From the IMG/VR virus record IMGVR_UViG_3300042465_002793, positions 1-31,054 of that record: a stretch of 31,054 bases of DNA, one strand, 5' to 3'. Below, piece by piece: positions 5,302-20,829 of this stretch. The translations under genes and the position numbers were made by a program. The first letter of the stretch is position 1. Each line of letters opens with the position of its first letter. Under the pieces are notes generated by a model that searched no databases, was not told the DNA's origin, and saw only the letters and a list, made by a program, of their open reading frames with translations. The DNA is from a virus.

Positions 5302-5664
5302 TTATGCAAGGAACTTCAATTTATACAAGGTGGACAGATATAAGTCCACGATGTTGTCAATGATGTTCTGGATCGCCGTGTCTTCTTTATCGCAAACCTT
5401 GTATCGAAGATCTTCGACCTCTTTCAAGCTATCCTCAAGAAAATCAACGACGTTATTGGTCTTTTTAGCGGAATGAAGCGTGATTGGCCCGATTAGACCA
5501 TGGCGTCCCTGATAGGCTTCCGCTAGATCGTCGGCCATGCCGATCACATCTTCGTAAAATTTGCCCAGCGCCTTGTGCTTGGCGTAAGACCGCGTGTTTA
5601 GATGCACCGAATGGGTTACATCACGCGCTAAAAACAGGTGCCCGATCAAATCTGCGCAGCTCAT
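5302..5664 (-). CDS. Helical, Dps/ferritin-like phage protein (DUF5856-like), 120 aa
   Basis: This 120-aa protein is almost wholly helical. Its first 60 residues resemble helices A and B of Dps-type ferritins: LFLARDVTHSVHLNTRSYAKH, then FYEDVIGMADDLAEAYQGR, with His, Asp and Glu spaced as in a four-helix bundle. The rest (VVDFLEDSLKEVEDL and IQNIIDNIVDLYLSTLYKL) would give the remaining helices. I recall the phage family DUF5856 having this look. Whether it binds iron cannot be judged. The start overlaps the portal stop as ATGA, so it is translationally coupled to the portal gene and presumably made late. It precedes the tail spike. A structural or packaging role is equally possible. Confidence 0.7.
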   Translation of the reverse strand: MSCADLIGHLFLARDVTHSVHLNTRSYAKHKALGKFYEDVIGMADDLAEAYQGRHGLIGPITLHSAKKTNNVVDFLEDSLKEVEDLRYKVCDKEDTAIQNIIDNIVDLYLSTLYKLKFLA

Positions 5665-10869: not shown

Positions 10870-10899
10870 CTGTAACAAAGTCACACAGGAGTGAATACA

Positions 10900-11481
10900 A
10901 TGGAACTGAATGTCAAATATCTCAAAGCCGCTGTCATCGTCGCCAGTAAAGAAGAGACGCGCTATTATCTGAAGGGCGTGGCCGTGCAAGCGGGCGACAA
11001 GGGCGCGTTTATCGTCGCGACCGACGACCATCGCGCGATGGCCTTCCGTCAAACGAGCGAGGCGCAAGCGCCAGTCGATATTATCATCCCGGCGGACATA
11101 ATCGCGGGAATCAAGCCTGGCAAATATGATGAGCGCGCCGAACTTACGCAAGAGAGTGAAAACCGCTGGCGAATTGACTATTGCGGGACAAGCATTGTCT
11201 TTTCGCCGATCGACGGGACATTCCCTGACTGGCGGCGCGTTGTCCCGAAAGAAATTTCGGGCGAGACGGCACAGTTTAACCCGTCATACGTCGGCGATTT
11301 CGCCAAAGTAGCCAAAGCTCTCGCCGCCAAAGGCGATTGCGTCAAAATCGCCCATAACGGCGGCGGCCCGGCGCTCGTCACGTTCGGCGACGATATTGAC
11401 GGCTTTGGCCTGCTCATGCCGACGCGCGCTAATCAGGCGTCCACCGTATGGGATAGCGCGCCGGCATGGGCGACTGTCTGA
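10900..11481 (+). CDS. Shortened DNA polymerase III beta (sliding clamp)-like protein, 193 aa
   Basis: The protein resembles the bacterial processivity clamp but is about half the usual ~370 residues. Recognisable pieces are LKAAVIVASKEETRYYLKGV near the N-terminus, VATDDHRAMAFR at 39-50 (clamp proteins have TDGHRL), SPIDGTFPDWRRVVP at 102-116 (matching the clamp I[D/E]G-FPDYRRV-P motif) and a C-terminal GLLMPTRA (clamps end in MPMR-like). One of the three usual clamp domains is probably missing or merged. Family members I recall from podophages look similar. AGGAG precedes the ATG by eight bases; an in-frame GTG lies three codons earlier. It may act with the phage family A polymerase encoded at 17254-19143. 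Confidence 0.82.
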   Translation: MELNVKYLKAAVIVASKEETRYYLKGVAVQAGDKGAFIVATDDHRAMAFRQTSEAQAPVDIIIPADIIAGIKPGKYDERAELTQESENRWRIDYCGTSIVFSPIDGTFPDWRRVVPKEISGETAQFNPSYVGDFAKVAKALAAKGDCVKIAHNGGGPALVTFGDDIDGFGLLMPTRANQASTVWDSAPAWATV

Positions 11482-12821: not shown

Positions 12822-13114
12822 CATGGCAGAATGAGCGTAAGACCCTGACCCTGTTCGGCGCTGACGGCTTGCCATGGGGCCAGATTTACCTGCCAAAGGC
12901 CGATGATCGCGCCTTGTTCGTGGCCGCACGGGCTTTGACATTCGCAATAGAGGGAGACTTCAGTGGAAGAGATAGACCAAAAGATAATGAAAATCATCGA
13001 AGAGGAAGCAAAGGCCAACGGCACGACCGTCGGCGTGCTGATAAATCACGACCGGATGATGTGGCGCTGCGCGATCCGTCAACGGATCATGTGGCGGGCG
13101 AGGAAGGAACTTAA
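12794..13114 (+). CDS. Hypothetical protein, 106 aa, with overlap-encoded C-terminal tail
   Basis: Residues 1-55 look like a normal small beta-rich protein: MRRVYLSKVTWQNERKTLTL, LPWGQIYLPKADDRALFVAA and RALTFAIEG. After about residue 56 the frame continues for 152 bases over the next gene and becomes Arg/Asp/Lys-rich low complexity (GRDRPKDNENHRRGSKGQRH). This is typical of translation in a frame under no selection. The original stop may have been lost, or a disordered tail is tolerated. The first half is probably the functional part. A short GGAGGCA-type site precedes the ATG. Confidence 0.55.
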   Translation: MRRVYLSKVTWQNERKTLTLFGADGLPWGQIYLPKADDRALFVAARALTFAIEGDFSGRDRPKDNENHRRGSKGQRHDRRRADKSRPDDVALRDPSTDHVAGEEGT

Positions 13115-13199
13115 AGCATCCTACCGGGCCATCGGGCGCGTTATGCGCCGCACGCACGCCGCCGTCCTGCGGGGAGTCCGCACCTATGAAGAAAGATGA
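12963..13199 (+). CDS. DnaA domain IV-like DNA-binding protein, 78 aa, GTG start
   Basis: This 78-aa basic protein resembles the C-terminal DNA-box-recognition domain of DnaA. The segment CAIRQRIMWRARKELKASYR, then AIGRVMRRTHAAVLRGVR, parallels the DnaA pattern in which a helix with 'ELT..S..IG..F' is followed by 'RDHTTV-HA-R'. The N-terminus is an acidic helix (EEIDQKIMKIIEEEAK). The start is GTG, with GGGAG about eight bases before it. The ATPase domain of DnaA is absent. It could bind repeats in the intergenic control region or DnaA boxes in host DNA. It may act as a replication or transcription regulator. Confidence 0.65.
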   Translation: MEEIDQKIMKIIEEEAKANGTTVGVLINHDRMMWRCAIRQRIMWRARKELKASYRAIGRVMRRTHAAVLRGVRTYEER

Positions 13200-14257: not shown

Positions 14258-16532
14258 TGTCTTTGTCTTTCAGTTCGCCGGTTATCGCGGCCAGTTCACG
14301 CCGCACGTCCGACCGGTTCCAGTCCGCCAGATGCGGTTTCACAAAACAATGCTTCTTTGACGGGAGATCTGACGAGTAGCAGAGCCCCTTGTCAACCCAG
14401 CCGGCTTCTTTCAACGCATGGAACAGCGCCGGGCGCACGACACGGGTCGCGTTGTCCATTGGATCGTTTAGCTTGGCCAGGAACGTGTGCCACGGCCCGC
14501 TGATAACATCGACGTTGAACGGCGCTTCGCCCTTTTCGATCATGTGATAGACATGGCTCTCGGCGTTACTCATGCCGACATAGATCAGTTTAGTCTTGTA
14601 TTCCGTCATGGGCGGGATCGCCTGCGGGTTGAACTTCGACACGTCCCGCGCACGCAGCCAGCCCGTCACGGCCTCGAAGCCGCCCTTGTGATACCAACCC
14701 CACATCGCCTGCGCCTCGCCGGGCGTCATCTTTGGCGCGTCGGACCACACACAGAACCATCGCCGGTCGTCGGAATCGAGCGTGATCGGCATGTCCTCGT
14801 TGGTGAACGCCAGCATGAAAAGGCGGTTGACCATCTGATAGGGGTGCAAGCCCTTGCGGTTGATGACCAGTGTCTCCGGCGGCGCGGCGATGATCGGCTT
14901 CAGCTTGTTCGCGAGCGCGCGGCGGTCCTTGGCGTCAGGTTCCTTCAGCTCATTAAGGACGACGATCTCCGACTCTAGCTGATAGCCCCATTGGCTCGTC
15001 AGGCTGTCGTTGTCAATCAGGCCCTTGTTTTTCTCATGCGGCCCACACACGCTCCATATAAACGGTGCCCACATGGTGTCCTTGCCGCAGCCGCCCTTGC
15101 CGCCGTGCAGGATCGCATGGTTGATCTTTACGTTTGGATGCTGGGCCTTATAGGCCATCACGTCCCATATATGCTCCAGCTCATGCTCTTCCGGCACAAG
15201 CCGCCGACAGTGGTCGATCCACCGCTGCGGGTCGCCGGCAGGGCCTTTGATCTCCGGCCGGGCGTCGCGCCACATGTTGCCGTAGACGAGCCCGTCCTTC
15301 GTGACCATCCAGTCTTCGCCGGCTGCGTAGGTCAGGCCGTGCAGGGCGTAAGCGCCCTTGTCCTCACGGAACGTGTCGAACCACGCCGACGCCTCGATGC
15401 GGCGCTTCTTACCTTCAGAATTAGAGACCACGCACTCCACGCCCTTGAACAAAGCGTTGAACGCCTTGCGGCTGATCTCGCTGCATGTGTGCCGGTCGAA
15501 GTAAGCGTCGTCGGAGATAATATAGGCGAAACGGTCATGCCATTCGCTGCGCGATTCACGGCCAGCCTGCTTGCGTTCCGTTTCGGCGATGATCTCGGCC
15601 GCCACGTCAGGGTTGGCTTTCGTCGGCTTCAGGCTGCTAAGCGGCTTCATCGCCTCAGCGATCAGTTCCTCGCGGATCCCCGGCCTGTGCTTTGGGCCGC
15701 CCTGCTCGGCGACCCAGTCGCAGAAATAGTTGCTGTCAAGATGTTCGCAGTGGCCATGGTAGCAACAGAACGCACGCGACTGCGGCATGTAGCGGGCTTC
15801 TAGCTGGCCGTCTGTATGCTCGGCATGGTTCGGGCACACGACGCCGCACCAGCCCTCACTGTTTACGCGCGACGTAACAAGCCCCTGCTCGTTGAGCCAC
15901 GCCAGCACGTCATCGCTTCCGGTATCCGTAAGACGTAAATGATTTGCGCGGCTGCTCTCTTCGTCGGGCGTAACGCCAAGCGCGGCGCATATTTCTTCTA
16001 ACGTATATTCTAGCTTCGAAAACTCTATTTCACGGCACTCGAACGCTTCGCGTCCAGGCTTGACATTTACGCTGCCCGGAAGACGACAGTTACGCACGGC
16101 GTTCGTCGCGCCCGGATCGGTGTAGCCTGCGCGTGCAATAGCTGACAGCGCGGCGCAATGCTGCTCAACCGTAGGTTGATCGCTGTAGGCATACCAATAT
16201 TGGAAGTTGCCGGGGCTCGTCTCAACGATAGCGGTCGGAGCGAGTGGCGGCGTCTTCGATTTCGTCCCGATGTCGTCCAGCATCATAAACAGAACATGTG
16301 TGCAGTTTGCCACGCTGGCGGACGGCTTGCCGTTCTTAAATCGGTCGATGATGAACGATCCGGTGTTGATGAACCAGCTATCGCCCTCACGGCGCTTATG
16401 CGACGGCATGTAAGCCGGCCATGTGTAGCGCGGCGTCCCGTCAGCGTGCAGCTTGCCGGTGTCGATCTGTTTGACGATCAGCGATGTCTCGCCTTCCGGC
16501 GCGAGCGAAGTAAAGTATTCAAAAAGTGTCAT
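14205..16532 (-). CDS. Primase-helicase (RepB-like primase plus SF3-type helicase), 775 aa
   Basis: This bifunctional replication protein appears to synthesise primers and unwind DNA. The N-terminal ~180 residues show a RepB-type primase signature: VLFMMLDD, PGNFQYWYAY and NAVRNCRLPGSVNVKPG. A Cys/His cluster at about 229-262 (GWCGVVCPNHAEH, FCCYHGHCEH) probably binds zinc. The C-terminal helicase (DUF5906-like) has a Walker A loop GGKGGCGKDT at about 477-486, an acidic strand EIVVLNELKE and FTNEDMPITLDSDDRRW, the sensor/arginine region. I chose the ATG at 16532 over one nine codons upstream because GAGGAA precedes it and it overlaps the PP-loop stop as ATGA. Confidence 0.9.
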   Translation of the reverse strand: MTLFEYFTSLAPEGETSLIVKQIDTGKLHADGTPRYTWPAYMPSHKRREGDSWFINTGSFIIDRFKNGKPSASVANCTHVLFMMLDDIGTKSKTPPLAPTAIVETSPGNFQYWYAYSDQPTVEQHCAALSAIARAGYTDPGATNAVRNCRLPGSVNVKPGREAFECREIEFSKLEYTLEEICAALGVTPDEESSRANHLRLTDTGSDDVLAWLNEQGLVTSRVNSEGWCGVVCPNHAEHTDGQLEARYMPQSRAFCCYHGHCEHLDSNYFCDWVAEQGGPKHRPGIREELIAEAMKPLSSLKPTKANPDVAAEIIAETERKQAGRESRSEWHDRFAYIISDDAYFDRHTCSEISRKAFNALFKGVECVVSNSEGKKRRIEASAWFDTFREDKGAYALHGLTYAAGEDWMVTKDGLVYGNMWRDARPEIKGPAGDPQRWIDHCRRLVPEEHELEHIWDVMAYKAQHPNVKINHAILHGGKGGCGKDTMWAPFIWSVCGPHEKNKGLIDNDSLTSQWGYQLESEIVVLNELKEPDAKDRRALANKLKPIIAAPPETLVINRKGLHPYQMVNRLFMLAFTNEDMPITLDSDDRRWFCVWSDAPKMTPGEAQAMWGWYHKGGFEAVTGWLRARDVSKFNPQAIPPMTEYKTKLIYVGMSNAESHVYHMIEKGEAPFNVDVISGPWHTFLAKLNDPMDNATRVVRPALFHALKEAGWVDKGLCYSSDLPSKKHCFVKPHLADWNRSDVRRELAAITGELKDKDNVVSLAERVSNIPKTSG

Positions 16533-17257
16533 CGTGTTTCCTCGCAGAATATTCCGCAATCTATCTGCATGTTCTTTAACGGCCTGCCCGTAGCGCCTTC
16601 TGGTAGCTCATCCAAAAACATGCGCTTGTTTTTATACCGAACCAACCGCACGCCAAGTTCGCGCGATTGCGCCGCGCGGTCGGCGTAAATTTCAGGATAT
16701 TCTTTACGCACTAATGACCAGTAGGTGGGCGACGTGGCCTTAACGCAACCGATACAGTTAGCATTCGGGAAACCTTTTCTGTAAATGCGCGGCGGTTTAA
16801 TACCGGCCGCCGAAATAATATTAAGACAATCCTGTTTTGTTAGCCCGGCGTCTATTAGCACAGGCAACACATTATCGCGCTCAGATAAAACGAATCGGTC
16901 GAACCTGTGCCGCTCGTCTATTGTAAAACCTAACACATGCCAGTCGGGATTGTTTATGCGCTCCCACTCCTGTCTCGCGCGTTTCTTCAACTCTATGGTG
17001 CAAGGCGCACCAAGAGGCCCTGACATAAAACGTCGATCTTGCCACACATCGCGCGCAGAACAAGAAGGATATTTACTGTTTGTGGCGCGTTCTATTTTTA
17101 CACCCAGCCATGTTTCAACATCACTTAAAAACCGTTCGTTGTCTTCGTCTTCCTCTACTACCGGGTTATTGACAACGCGAACGTCAGGATATTTTTCTAT
17201 TGTCAGCTTGGCGGCGACCGCGCTGGCAGCACCGCAAGAAAACCATACTGCAATCAT
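16529..17257 (-). CDS. PP-loop ATPase of the PAPS-reductase-like superfamily, 242 aa
   Basis: The N-terminus MIAVWFSCGAASAVAAKL is a PP-loop (S-x-G-x-x-S) that in this superfamily binds and adenylates a nucleotide substrate. The family includes PAPS reductases, DndC-type and tRNA-thiolation enzymes. Eight cysteines are present. The set Cys86 (APCTIELKKRA), Cys168 and Cys171 (ANCIGCVKA) and Cys234/238 (DCGIFCEE) is spaced as in metal- or Fe-S-binding relatives. The C-terminal tail of a true PAPS reductase (ECGLH) is not seen. The gene overlaps both the polymerase stop and the primase start by ATGA, so all three are probably made together. Nucleic-acid modification is my favoured reading over sulfur assimilation; unproven. 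Confidence 0.82.
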   Translation of the reverse strand: MIAVWFSCGAASAVAAKLTIEKYPDVRVVNNPVVEEDEDNERFLSDVETWLGVKIERATNSKYPSCSARDVWQDRRFMSGPLGAPCTIELKKRARQEWERINNPDWHVLGFTIDERHRFDRFVLSERDNVLPVLIDAGLTKQDCLNIISAAGIKPPRIYRKGFPNANCIGCVKATSPTYWSLVRKEYPEIYADRAAQSRELGVRLVRYKNKRMFLDELPEGATGRPLKNMQIDCGIFCEETR

Positions 17258-19143
17258 TTCCCATACCTCTCCATCACGCTCGCTTCTACGTCGAGCGGCA
17301 ATCCTGCGGCCCAGAACGGCGGCGTTGTCATCACTTCTTCTAATCTTGCTTTGGCTTCTTCCGGCTGGTCAGTCTCAATAACGATTTCGTCGTGAACATG
17401 CAGAACCACACCGTCAAGACGGCGAAGAGCCTCACGAAGAAGGTCATGGGCGGTCGCTTGTGTGACGTTCTCACAAGCCAAGCCGGGCCATAGACGCGCA
17501 CGGGGCCATTCCTTCGCATCTGCGGCAGGCTTCCATGACGCCTTCGCGTATGTAATGCCGCCATCGTCTTCAAATCGGGCGAACGGATAGCAAAGCACAC
17601 GGCCTGACGGCAGGCAATACCAAAGATGCTTACCATCTGCGAGGTAGGTTATCTTTCCTGCGTTGAACTCTTTTCCTTTGTTGCGCAGCGCACGAATGTA
17701 CGCAATCTCCAGATCACGCCAGAACGGCGGAGCCCAATCGTTCGCCAGCCGCCAGCCGTTCACCATCTTGCGCGCCTGCGGCTCGGGCAGGTTAACGCCA
17801 TATACGCGACCCATGGCGGCGAACGCGCCGATACCGCCGCCGAATCCGCAGGCCAGCTCCTGCACCTTTCCGATCTGACGCTGTTCCTTGTTCACGTCGT
17901 CATATGACACGTTGAATGTCTTCGCGGCATTGACTTTGTAAACGTCGAGACCTTCACGGAAATGCTGTAGCTTCTTGTCGCCTCTGTCGGACAGCCACGG
18001 ATTGACGCGGCCCTCGATGGCCGACCAGTCAGCGACGACGAGCGAAGAACCTTTGGCCGGAATCAGAGCGGGCCGCAGCATACCACGCAATACGTCTGTA
18101 ACGCGCCGTCCGTATTTCGGCACGATGGCGTGACCTCGCACCATCGCGTGTCGCACGCTGGCGGGATCATCTGCGCATTTACGTGTAAAGTTGTGAACCT
18201 GCGCGCCGTAACTAGACGCGCGTCCTGTGGCGGATCCACCGGCAAAGACAAAAGCGCCTCTAACGCGACCGTCAGCGCAAGCCAGATTGCGAAGACGATC
18301 AAACTTTGCCACGCTCGACGCCCAAAGGTCATCGGCGCACTGTATGACTTCTTTAACATCGGGGGGCACCTCTTCCGGGTCATCTATGGCCAGCAGATTA
18401 GCGCGGACAGTCTTGTCAATCGACATCTTGTCCTCGCGCTGCATGAGCTTCAGCGCTTCGGGGCCAAGTCTATTTTGCACCCACAGCCGCATTCGAGGAC
18501 TTCGAACGCTCGTAACCTCTCCGCCCGTGATCTCGACAACCGCAGCCTCGATCTCTCGAAGCTCGTCAGCCGCGTATTTGACCGCCGCGCTGCATAGATT
18601 GATGTCGACAAGAACGCCACGATCATTAATGCGCTCGTTAACATGGTAGTCCTCCAGTTCCTCGGGAGTCAGTTCACGCATCGCCTGACTGGCGGCGCGC
18701 ATGGTCCGCACGTCCTGCTCGCAGTATTCTATCAGCTCGGGCAGCAGCTCGGTATTGAAGGGCGGCATACAGCACTTGCGGACGAGATACGCGCCGCGAT
18801 GATCCTTACGCATCGACAGTCCGGCGAATCGGCCAACGTCTTCAAGACTGCCCGGCGCACAGTTCGCCCGCGCCTGCGCGGCGGTGCAGTAGAACTGCTC
18901 TAATGGTATGTCCATGCCCAGCACATGCCAGAAGATCAGACGTTCGAACGCAGCGTTATGCGCGCGTATCTGACCGCGCACATTTGGCATGGGCTCGCCC
19001 GGCCGCCACGTCATCACAGGCCCATCGTTGAAGGCGTAGGACATGCACAGCACGCGGGTCGACGGGTGACTGGCGTAGTTGTATACGCCCGCCTCCGGTA
19101 GATCGCATTCGCTGGCAGTCTCGAAATCAGTCCAGAAGATCAT
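17254..19143 (-). CDS. Family A DNA polymerase with 3'-5' exonuclease, 629 aa
   Basis: The replicative polymerase has an exonuclease domain at its start: Asp6 and Glu8 in WTDFETAS, HNAAFE at 62-67 and YCEQD (Tyr140/Asp144). The polymerase motifs follow: TGRASSYGAQVHNF at 306-319, motif A DWSAIEGR at 372-379, motif B KEQRQIGKVQELACGFGGG around 419-437 and motif C HVHDE at 582-586. No 5' nuclease domain is present, which is normal for phage enzymes of this type. It matches the bacteriophage-type PolA group rather than T7 gp5 closely. It starts 17 bases inside the exported small gene's end and overlaps the PP-loop gene by ATGA. The phage clamp-like protein may be its partner. Confidence 0.95.
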   Translation of the reverse strand: MIFWTDFETASECDLPEAGVYNYASHPSTRVLCMSYAFNDGPVMTWRPGEPMPNVRGQIRAHNAAFERLIFWHVLGMDIPLEQFYCTAAQARANCAPGSLEDVGRFAGLSMRKDHRGAYLVRKCCMPPFNTELLPELIEYCEQDVRTMRAASQAMRELTPEELEDYHVNERINDRGVLVDINLCSAAVKYAADELREIEAAVVEITGGEVTSVRSPRMRLWVQNRLGPEALKLMQREDKMSIDKTVRANLLAIDDPEEVPPDVKEVIQCADDLWASSVAKFDRLRNLACADGRVRGAFVFAGGSATGRASSYGAQVHNFTRKCADDPASVRHAMVRGHAIVPKYGRRVTDVLRGMLRPALIPAKGSSLVVADWSAIEGRVNPWLSDRGDKKLQHFREGLDVYKVNAAKTFNVSYDDVNKEQRQIGKVQELACGFGGGIGAFAAMGRVYGVNLPEPQARKMVNGWRLANDWAPPFWRDLEIAYIRALRNKGKEFNAGKITYLADGKHLWYCLPSGRVLCYPFARFEDDGGITYAKASWKPAADAKEWPRARLWPGLACENVTQATAHDLLREALRRLDGVVLHVHDEIVIETDQPEEAKARLEEVMTTPPFWAAGLPLDVEASVMERYGK

Positions 19144-20208: not shown

Positions 20209-20829
20209 TCAGCTACGACGACGCCGACCCGTGTCGGCCTCAGCCACCTCTTCGACCGGCCCATTAAGGCTGATCCAGTCCGTGACCTCGAACACAGGTG
20301 TAAAAACCCGTCCATAGCTCTTGTGCTGGTAATGATCGGTACCAAGTTTTACCAGTGCAACAGAGTTGTCAGGATCTTTCTCGACCTGCTCGGCGACCTT
20401 CATAGCAAGCGCGTGCATCGCCTTTTTCCCGCCGACCGCAGTCGTCGTGAAGCGTGCTTGCACATCCTTGTCTTCGCCGCTGATACACTTCAGACTCATG
20501 CCGACCTGCGGTTCCCAACCACGCTTGGCATTCGGCGGCGGGGGTTCCAGCTCCGGCAGCTCTTCAGTGATCGGGAACATATGCTCGCCAAGCACCTCGC
20601 CTTCGCCCCACGCAATGTAGCCGTGGATGAAGGACAAAGGATTGACCGCCCAGATACCGCTGCGGTCGATCTCGGTCTGGTCCGCACCATAGACCCAGTG
20701 GCCCGTCTTATCCATTTTCAGGATAACACCCGGCCCTGACGCGGCCTCGTCGGCTGTCTTACGCAACGCAGCCGCTAACGACGCGGCCGTGGGAAGGTTG
20801 GCGTTACCGAACTTTACGATATTGGTCAT
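20209..20829 (-). CDS. Phage replication-block protein, 206 aa, unknown function (SSB candidate)
   Basis: The 206-aa protein begins MTNIVKFGNANLPTAASLAA and has ILKMDKTGHWVYGADQTEID, WEPQVGMSLKCISGEDKDVQ, KVAEQVEKDPDNSVALVKLG and an Arg-rich end (ADTGRRRRS). The alternating beta-strand character with aromatic residues and its place beside a DUF2800 nuclease suggest a single-stranded-DNA-binding or annealing protein; I cannot confirm this. The acidic C-terminal tail of bacterial SSB is missing. AGAGGTAAAG precedes the ATG; one base separates it from the nuclease stop. The UUCG hairpin follows its end. Confidence 0.62.
   Translation of the reverse strand: MTNIVKFGNANLPTAASLAAALRKTADEAASGPGVILKMDKTGHWVYGADQTEIDRSGIWAVNPLSFIHGYIAWGEGEVLGEHMFPITEELPELEPPPPNAKRGWEPQVGMSLKCISGEDKDVQARFTTTAVGGKKAMHALAMKVAEQVEKDPDNSVALVKLGTDHYQHKSYGRVFTPVFEVTDWISLNGPVEEVAEADTGRRRRS

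Follow-up and report, generated by a model that had tools for sequence, protein, structure and literature searches.

Sliding clamps of the T4 gp45 and PCNA type are trimers, with two complete domains in a subunit of about 200 residues. The bacterial beta clamp (DnaN) has three domains per subunit; its dimer interface is built between domain I and domain III, and its pocket for the clamp-binding motif (CBM) lies in domains II and III. The residues of both surfaces are listed in a review (PMC11139829). Those of the pocket are R152, L155, T172, H175, R176, P242, R246, V247, N320, Y323, M362, P363 and R365, and those of the dimer interface are K74, I78, R96, R103, R105 and F106 on one side and I272, L273, E298, E300, E301, E303 and E304 on the other.

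Phages encode much shorter proteins of this kind, grouped in PHROG 3007, where the family labels read either 'DNA polymerase III beta subunit' or 'RusA-like resolvase'. Named members are Bcep781 gp15, BcepC6B gp31, EP23 gp08 and Bas77_0042. No earlier papers on short clamps were found in the open-licence literature, and work in subscription journals may exist.

Here, we describe a short clamp encoded in a single virus record from IMG/VR, 31,054 bases long, the whole of which was analysed and is referred to as the window. The protein is one further member of the already known family PHROG 3007. It has about 28-32% identity to the members from the named phages and shares with them the length class, an architecture of domain II plus half of domain III, and the pocket motifs.

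A genuine beta-clamp gene

A sequence-only reading of the window had taken one open reading frame for a clamp homologue of about half the usual length. Both parts of that claim are borne out. The frame is a genuine gene, with an ATG start, an AGGAG ribosome-binding site, beta-clamp profile matches and a dN/dS of about 0.1 (Table 1), and the motifs quoted for it (VATDDHRAM, PIDGTFPDWRRVVP and LLMPTR) are all found in the 193-residue product. The protein matches the Pfam family DNA_pol3_beta_2 (PF02767) with an E-value of 7.7e-9, better than the curated cut-off. Its residues 1-178 match positions 3-187 of the 190 in the phrog_3007 profile, practically the full length of that family, at E 9e-33, and it also matches phrog_947 (processivity factor) at E 1e-13. 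Solved beta clamps in the PDB are found at E 5e-10 with the single sequence and at 1e-22 with a family profile. The window protein is thus a member of the beta-clamp superfamily. Codon comparison against eight close relatives gave dN/dS values of 0.09-0.12, and the gene is under purifying selection.

Table 1. Coordinates of the short clamp gene, its parts and other genes of the window
Feature	Position	Strand	Basis
Gene for DUF5856 protein, adjoining portal gene	5302-5664	-	PHROG label 'starvation-inducible transcriptional regulator'; weak ferritin-like match
Ribosome-binding site AGGAG	10887-10891	+	Sequence reading, 8 bases upstream of ATG
Short beta-clamp-like protein gene, 193 aa, PHROG 3007 family	10900-11481	+	ATG start; Pfam, PHROG, fold, purifying selection
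Complete beta domain II, residues 1-117; pocket residues R21, L24, T41, H44, R45, P109, R113, V114	10900-11250	+	PF02767, structural alignment, E. coli beta residue mapping
C-terminal half of beta domain III, residues 118-177; pocket residues N127, Y130, M173, P174, R176	11251-11430	+	Profile and structure alignments
C-terminal tail ending APAWATV, residues 178-193	11431-11478	+	pLDDT 66-80, not confidently structured
Gene for stand-alone 78-aa protein resembling DnaA DNA-binding domain IV	12963-13199	+	PF08299 E 2.3e-6, just under curated cut-off
Phosphoadenosine phosphosulfate reductase-like gene, between PolA and primase-helicase	16529-17257	-	
Family A polymerase (PolA)	17254-19143	-	Pfam, PHROG

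One and a half domains of three

The predicted fold is that of a beta clamp. An AlphaFold model of the window protein, built from an alignment of 20 family members, has a mean pLDDT of 90.6 and a pTM of 0.85 and consists of three beta-alpha-beta half-units. Without exception, its best 50 structure matches in the PDB are beta clamps of bacteria or complexes in which such a clamp is present. In comparisons with VIA-align, the model scores Z 18.3 against the beta chain of 7evp, and its residues 1-177 superpose on residues 128-366 of E. coli beta with 171 residues aligned, an rmsd of 2.2 Å and a Z of about 15-17. Domain II of beta is therefore recognized in sequence (PF02767, E 7.7e-9) as well as in fold (Z 15-18). 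Since the E. coli range spans 239 residues and only 171 are aligned, an internal segment must be missing.

By sequence, the gap corresponds to roughly beta 254-317, which is the first half of domain III. When the final third of the short clamps was turned into a profile, most of that profile matched the last ~50 residues of several full-length clamps from phages. Two solved clamps, 6deg and 6d46, are matched by the family profile at beta 334-381 and 337-388. The match of the motif FNxxYxxD to beta 334-388 in the same two structures supports this placement. One MAFFT mode set the gap at beta 280-341, which is less likely because the half-domain profile and the FNxxYxxD match favour 254-317. One of two alignment modes puts A140/L141 on I272/L273, which was judged less likely from the same profile matches.

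The window protein accordingly comprises domain II and the C-terminal half of domain III, i.e. 1.5 of the three domains of a beta subunit. Domain I is missing, as is the N-terminal half of domain III, and the protein cannot be called a shrunken clamp. The sequence-only reading had proposed a one- or two-domain clamp; the count lies between its two figures. T4 gp45 and PCNA resemble the protein in subunit size, about 200 residues, and in the clamp superfamily fold, but its second domain is only a half, and its sequence is DnaN-like.

The partner pocket is kept and the dimer interface apparently lost

The 13 published pocket residues of E. coli beta correspond, in order, to the 13 pocket residues of Table 1; all are identical, and they are conserved across the family. 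Over 18 pocket columns, conservation is 0.777, compared with 0.52 for the rest of the protein (permutation p 1e-5). When the published interface residues are aligned, all of them (74-106 in domain I, 272-304 in the first half of domain III) map to the missing segments, so that the domain I-domain III interface appears to be gone. The protein is like DnaN in its fold and in the CBM pocket of domains II and III, and unlike it in lacking domain I, the first half of domain III and, as judged from this alignment, the beta-type dimer interface. An ordinary beta dimer cannot be assumed, as the sequence-only reading had cautioned. Most of the basic residues are retained on those helices that in beta are turned towards DNA, with K or R at position 136 in 80% of members and at position 9 in 70%.

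The short-clamp family

Searches by tblastn matched 154 phage records with the window protein and 275 with EP23 gp08, the carriers including Dhillonvirus, Kagunavirus, Sortsnevirus, Naesvirus and Ryyoungvirus, and BFVD holds predicted structures of many viral clamps of 180-215 residues. Full-length clamps alone were found in bacterial genomes with a readable architecture, and plasmids gave only partial matches to DnaN-like genes.

Of 75 IMG/VR loci, 54 are without domain I and without the first half of domain III, both parts are present in 19, and 2 are intermediate; the two halves of the dimer interface were lost together, with two exceptions. The distance from IDGxFPDW to LMPxR separates the classes, being 57-76 residues in the 54 short clamps and 113-130 in the 19 full-length ones. 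Loci L039 and L070 show a 2.5-domain form, with domains I and II plus only half of domain III, and the frame of L070 runs on into a long C-terminal extension. No tandem or fused short clamps were seen, the long frames of L038, L043 and L070 bearing other extensions. All aligned members, even at 28% identity, share an invariant IDGTFPDW motif. A PxW motif follows shortly after LMPxR in 27 of 43 short clamps; the window protein has it, whereas the EP23, Bas77 and Bcep781 proteins and E. coli beta do not.

A loose link to the family A polymerase

The phage does encode its own family A polymerase (Table 1), as the sequence-only reading had stated, but the special pairing that it saw between this enzyme and the clamp did not hold up. 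Orthologous polymerases occur in phages that have no clamp, and a partnership of PolA and beta is not strange in principle, E. coli Pol I being itself affected by beta (PMC6010275). PolA of the window type is present in about 1,500 phage records. Ten genomes that have such a PolA or are kin to a carrier, including Dhillonvirus GeorgBuechner, three Jerseyvirus genomes, Bordetella phage BPP-1 and ctNMl277, gave zero short-clamp matches at E 1. The polymerase of ctNMl277 is 63% identical to that of the window, in a genome without the clamp, and such orthologues rule out a family A polymerase as the obligate partner. MW202483.1 (ctNMl277, L171) is a complete circular relative of 38.8 kb with an orthologous PolA, a P22-like portal and a DnaA-like gene, and makes a useful reference for the window; its annotation also includes a 'dnaa protein helix-turn-helix'.

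Within Dhillonvirus, both flanks of the clamp gene align between EP23 and GeorgBuechner, and the difference is a stretch of about 570 bp with the clamp ORF, a clean one-gene insertion within the head-gene operon. The depositors of a third Dhillonvirus annotated its clamp gene as a 'possible moron gene product'. From this empty site and from the clamp-less PolA genomes, the short clamp is not an obligate processivity subunit inherited with the polymerase. The link between the two is loose, and the polymerase does not need the clamp.

In a sample of 32 carrier records, phage-type PolA was present in 10 of 22 records with a short clamp and in none of 10 with a longer one (Fisher p 0.010), the records often being fragments and not independent of one another. 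In G008, 13 bp separate PolA from the clamp gene behind it, which in turn overlaps the gene for the primase-helicase; the clamp gene of BcepC6B sits between PolA and an endonuclease. Replication modes differ among carriers: some have PolA, some a DnaB-type helicase without a detected PolA, and some RepL. No phage-encoded Pol III alpha was seen among the 32 records. The sequence-only reading had suggested looking for a clamp-binding peptide in the phage's own proteins, and this gave no support: across the proteins of the window and of the carriers, CBM-like motifs numbered 88, where 98.9 were expected, and the carriers' PolA proteins contained none. A conserved Q[VI]GM[STA]L occurs in DUF2815 proteins (at residue 108 of the one encoded at 20209-20829 in the window) and appears to be part of the fold core.

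A proposed ringless pocket module and its alternatives

We propose that the gene is an optional, moron-like accessory gene for a ringless pocket module, which would compete for or capture clamp-binding host proteins, and we put the probability of this reading at roughly 0.45. The protein would be a monomer or small oligomer with no closed beta-type ring. Its pocket may bind CBM peptides of host proteins, e.g. Pol III alpha or delta, Hda, MutL, Pol I or ligase, and the bound proteins would be either drawn off the host clamp during takeover or held for phage replication. The reasoning is that a protein that has kept the pocket and apparently lost the ring interface, that is encoded by a single optional gene, and that does not track any one polymerase is likely to act on partners common to its hosts, and CBM proteins are such partners. 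A known comparison is Gp168 (PDB 7evp), a phage inhibitor of the host clamp. Both proteins could disturb host clamp traffic, but in 7evp, by its title, Gp168 is bound to the clamp, whereas the window protein is itself a piece of a clamp and would bind the partners instead.

Two sets of observations count against the ringless module. The retained basic helix residues would not be needed by a pure decoy, and PolA operons occur in two lineages, in the order PolA-clamp-primase in G008 and PolA-clamp-endonuclease in BcepC6B, alongside an excess of PolA in short-clamp records. The operons and the basic residues argue for a role in replication and, together with the PolA excess, are also the case for the main rival, a replisome adaptor in which the short clamp links PolA, primase-helicase or nuclease to DNA or to host factors and is not an obligate processivity ring. 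We nevertheless think the adaptor unlikely, though it is the strongest competitor. Orthologous PolA modules do without the clamp in GeorgBuechner, the three Jerseyvirus genomes and ctNMl277, as does BPP-1, a relative of BcepC6B; the carriers' PolA proteins have no canonical clamp-binding motif, and many carriers have no detectable PolA, several of those records being fragments. The basic helix faces would also suit a ring of an unusual kind, a D2 tetramer that slides on DNA, its four copies of 1.5 domains joined through self-pairing open ends with alternating faces. With three half-units in the predicted fold, such a ring would contain 4 x 3 = 12 half-domains, as clamp rings do. It would, however, require two self-pairing interfaces not known in clamps, and the ring-closing elements of beta are missing, which makes it improbable.

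The remaining two explanations have very little to recommend them. Half of beta's length and the loss of whole segments might suggest a functionless, decaying remnant of a full clamp, but a remnant should not be under purifying selection, and IDGTFPDW should not have stayed invariant across so diverged a family; moreover, the same architecture recurs in many unrelated phage genera. We consider a remnant highly improbable. A Holliday junction resolvase of the RusA type, the identity given in RefSeq and PHROG 3007, is less probable still, the database label being all that speaks for it. Compared with hhalign, the family matches Bcep781 Rus (gp22) with 0.2% probability and E. coli beta with 98.5%, and the window protein has no Pfam RusA match. 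The depositors of Bcep781 themselves named gp15 'DNA Pol III b subunit fragment' and assigned Rus to gp22. The resolvase label is wrong, and it has spread through many phage annotations.

Significance

Hundreds of phages that infect Escherichia, Salmonella, Klebsiella, Vibrio and Acinetobacter carry members of the family, a large share of which is mislabelled as RusA resolvase. The family may represent a widespread kind of phage effector derived from the partner-binding pocket of the host clamp: ringless pieces of beta by which clamp-binding proteins are titrated or captured, with the effect that replication and repair in the host are redirected. This is a generalization that we hold slightly more tentatively than the reading of the gene itself. 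Pairs of Dhillonvirus with and without the clamp gene offer a direct test system in laboratory E. coli. If these proteins do present the pocket without the ring, they would be a ready-made natural competitor for all users of the bacterial clamp, which is a recognized antibacterial target, and would offer a way into the question of how phages redirect the replication of their hosts.
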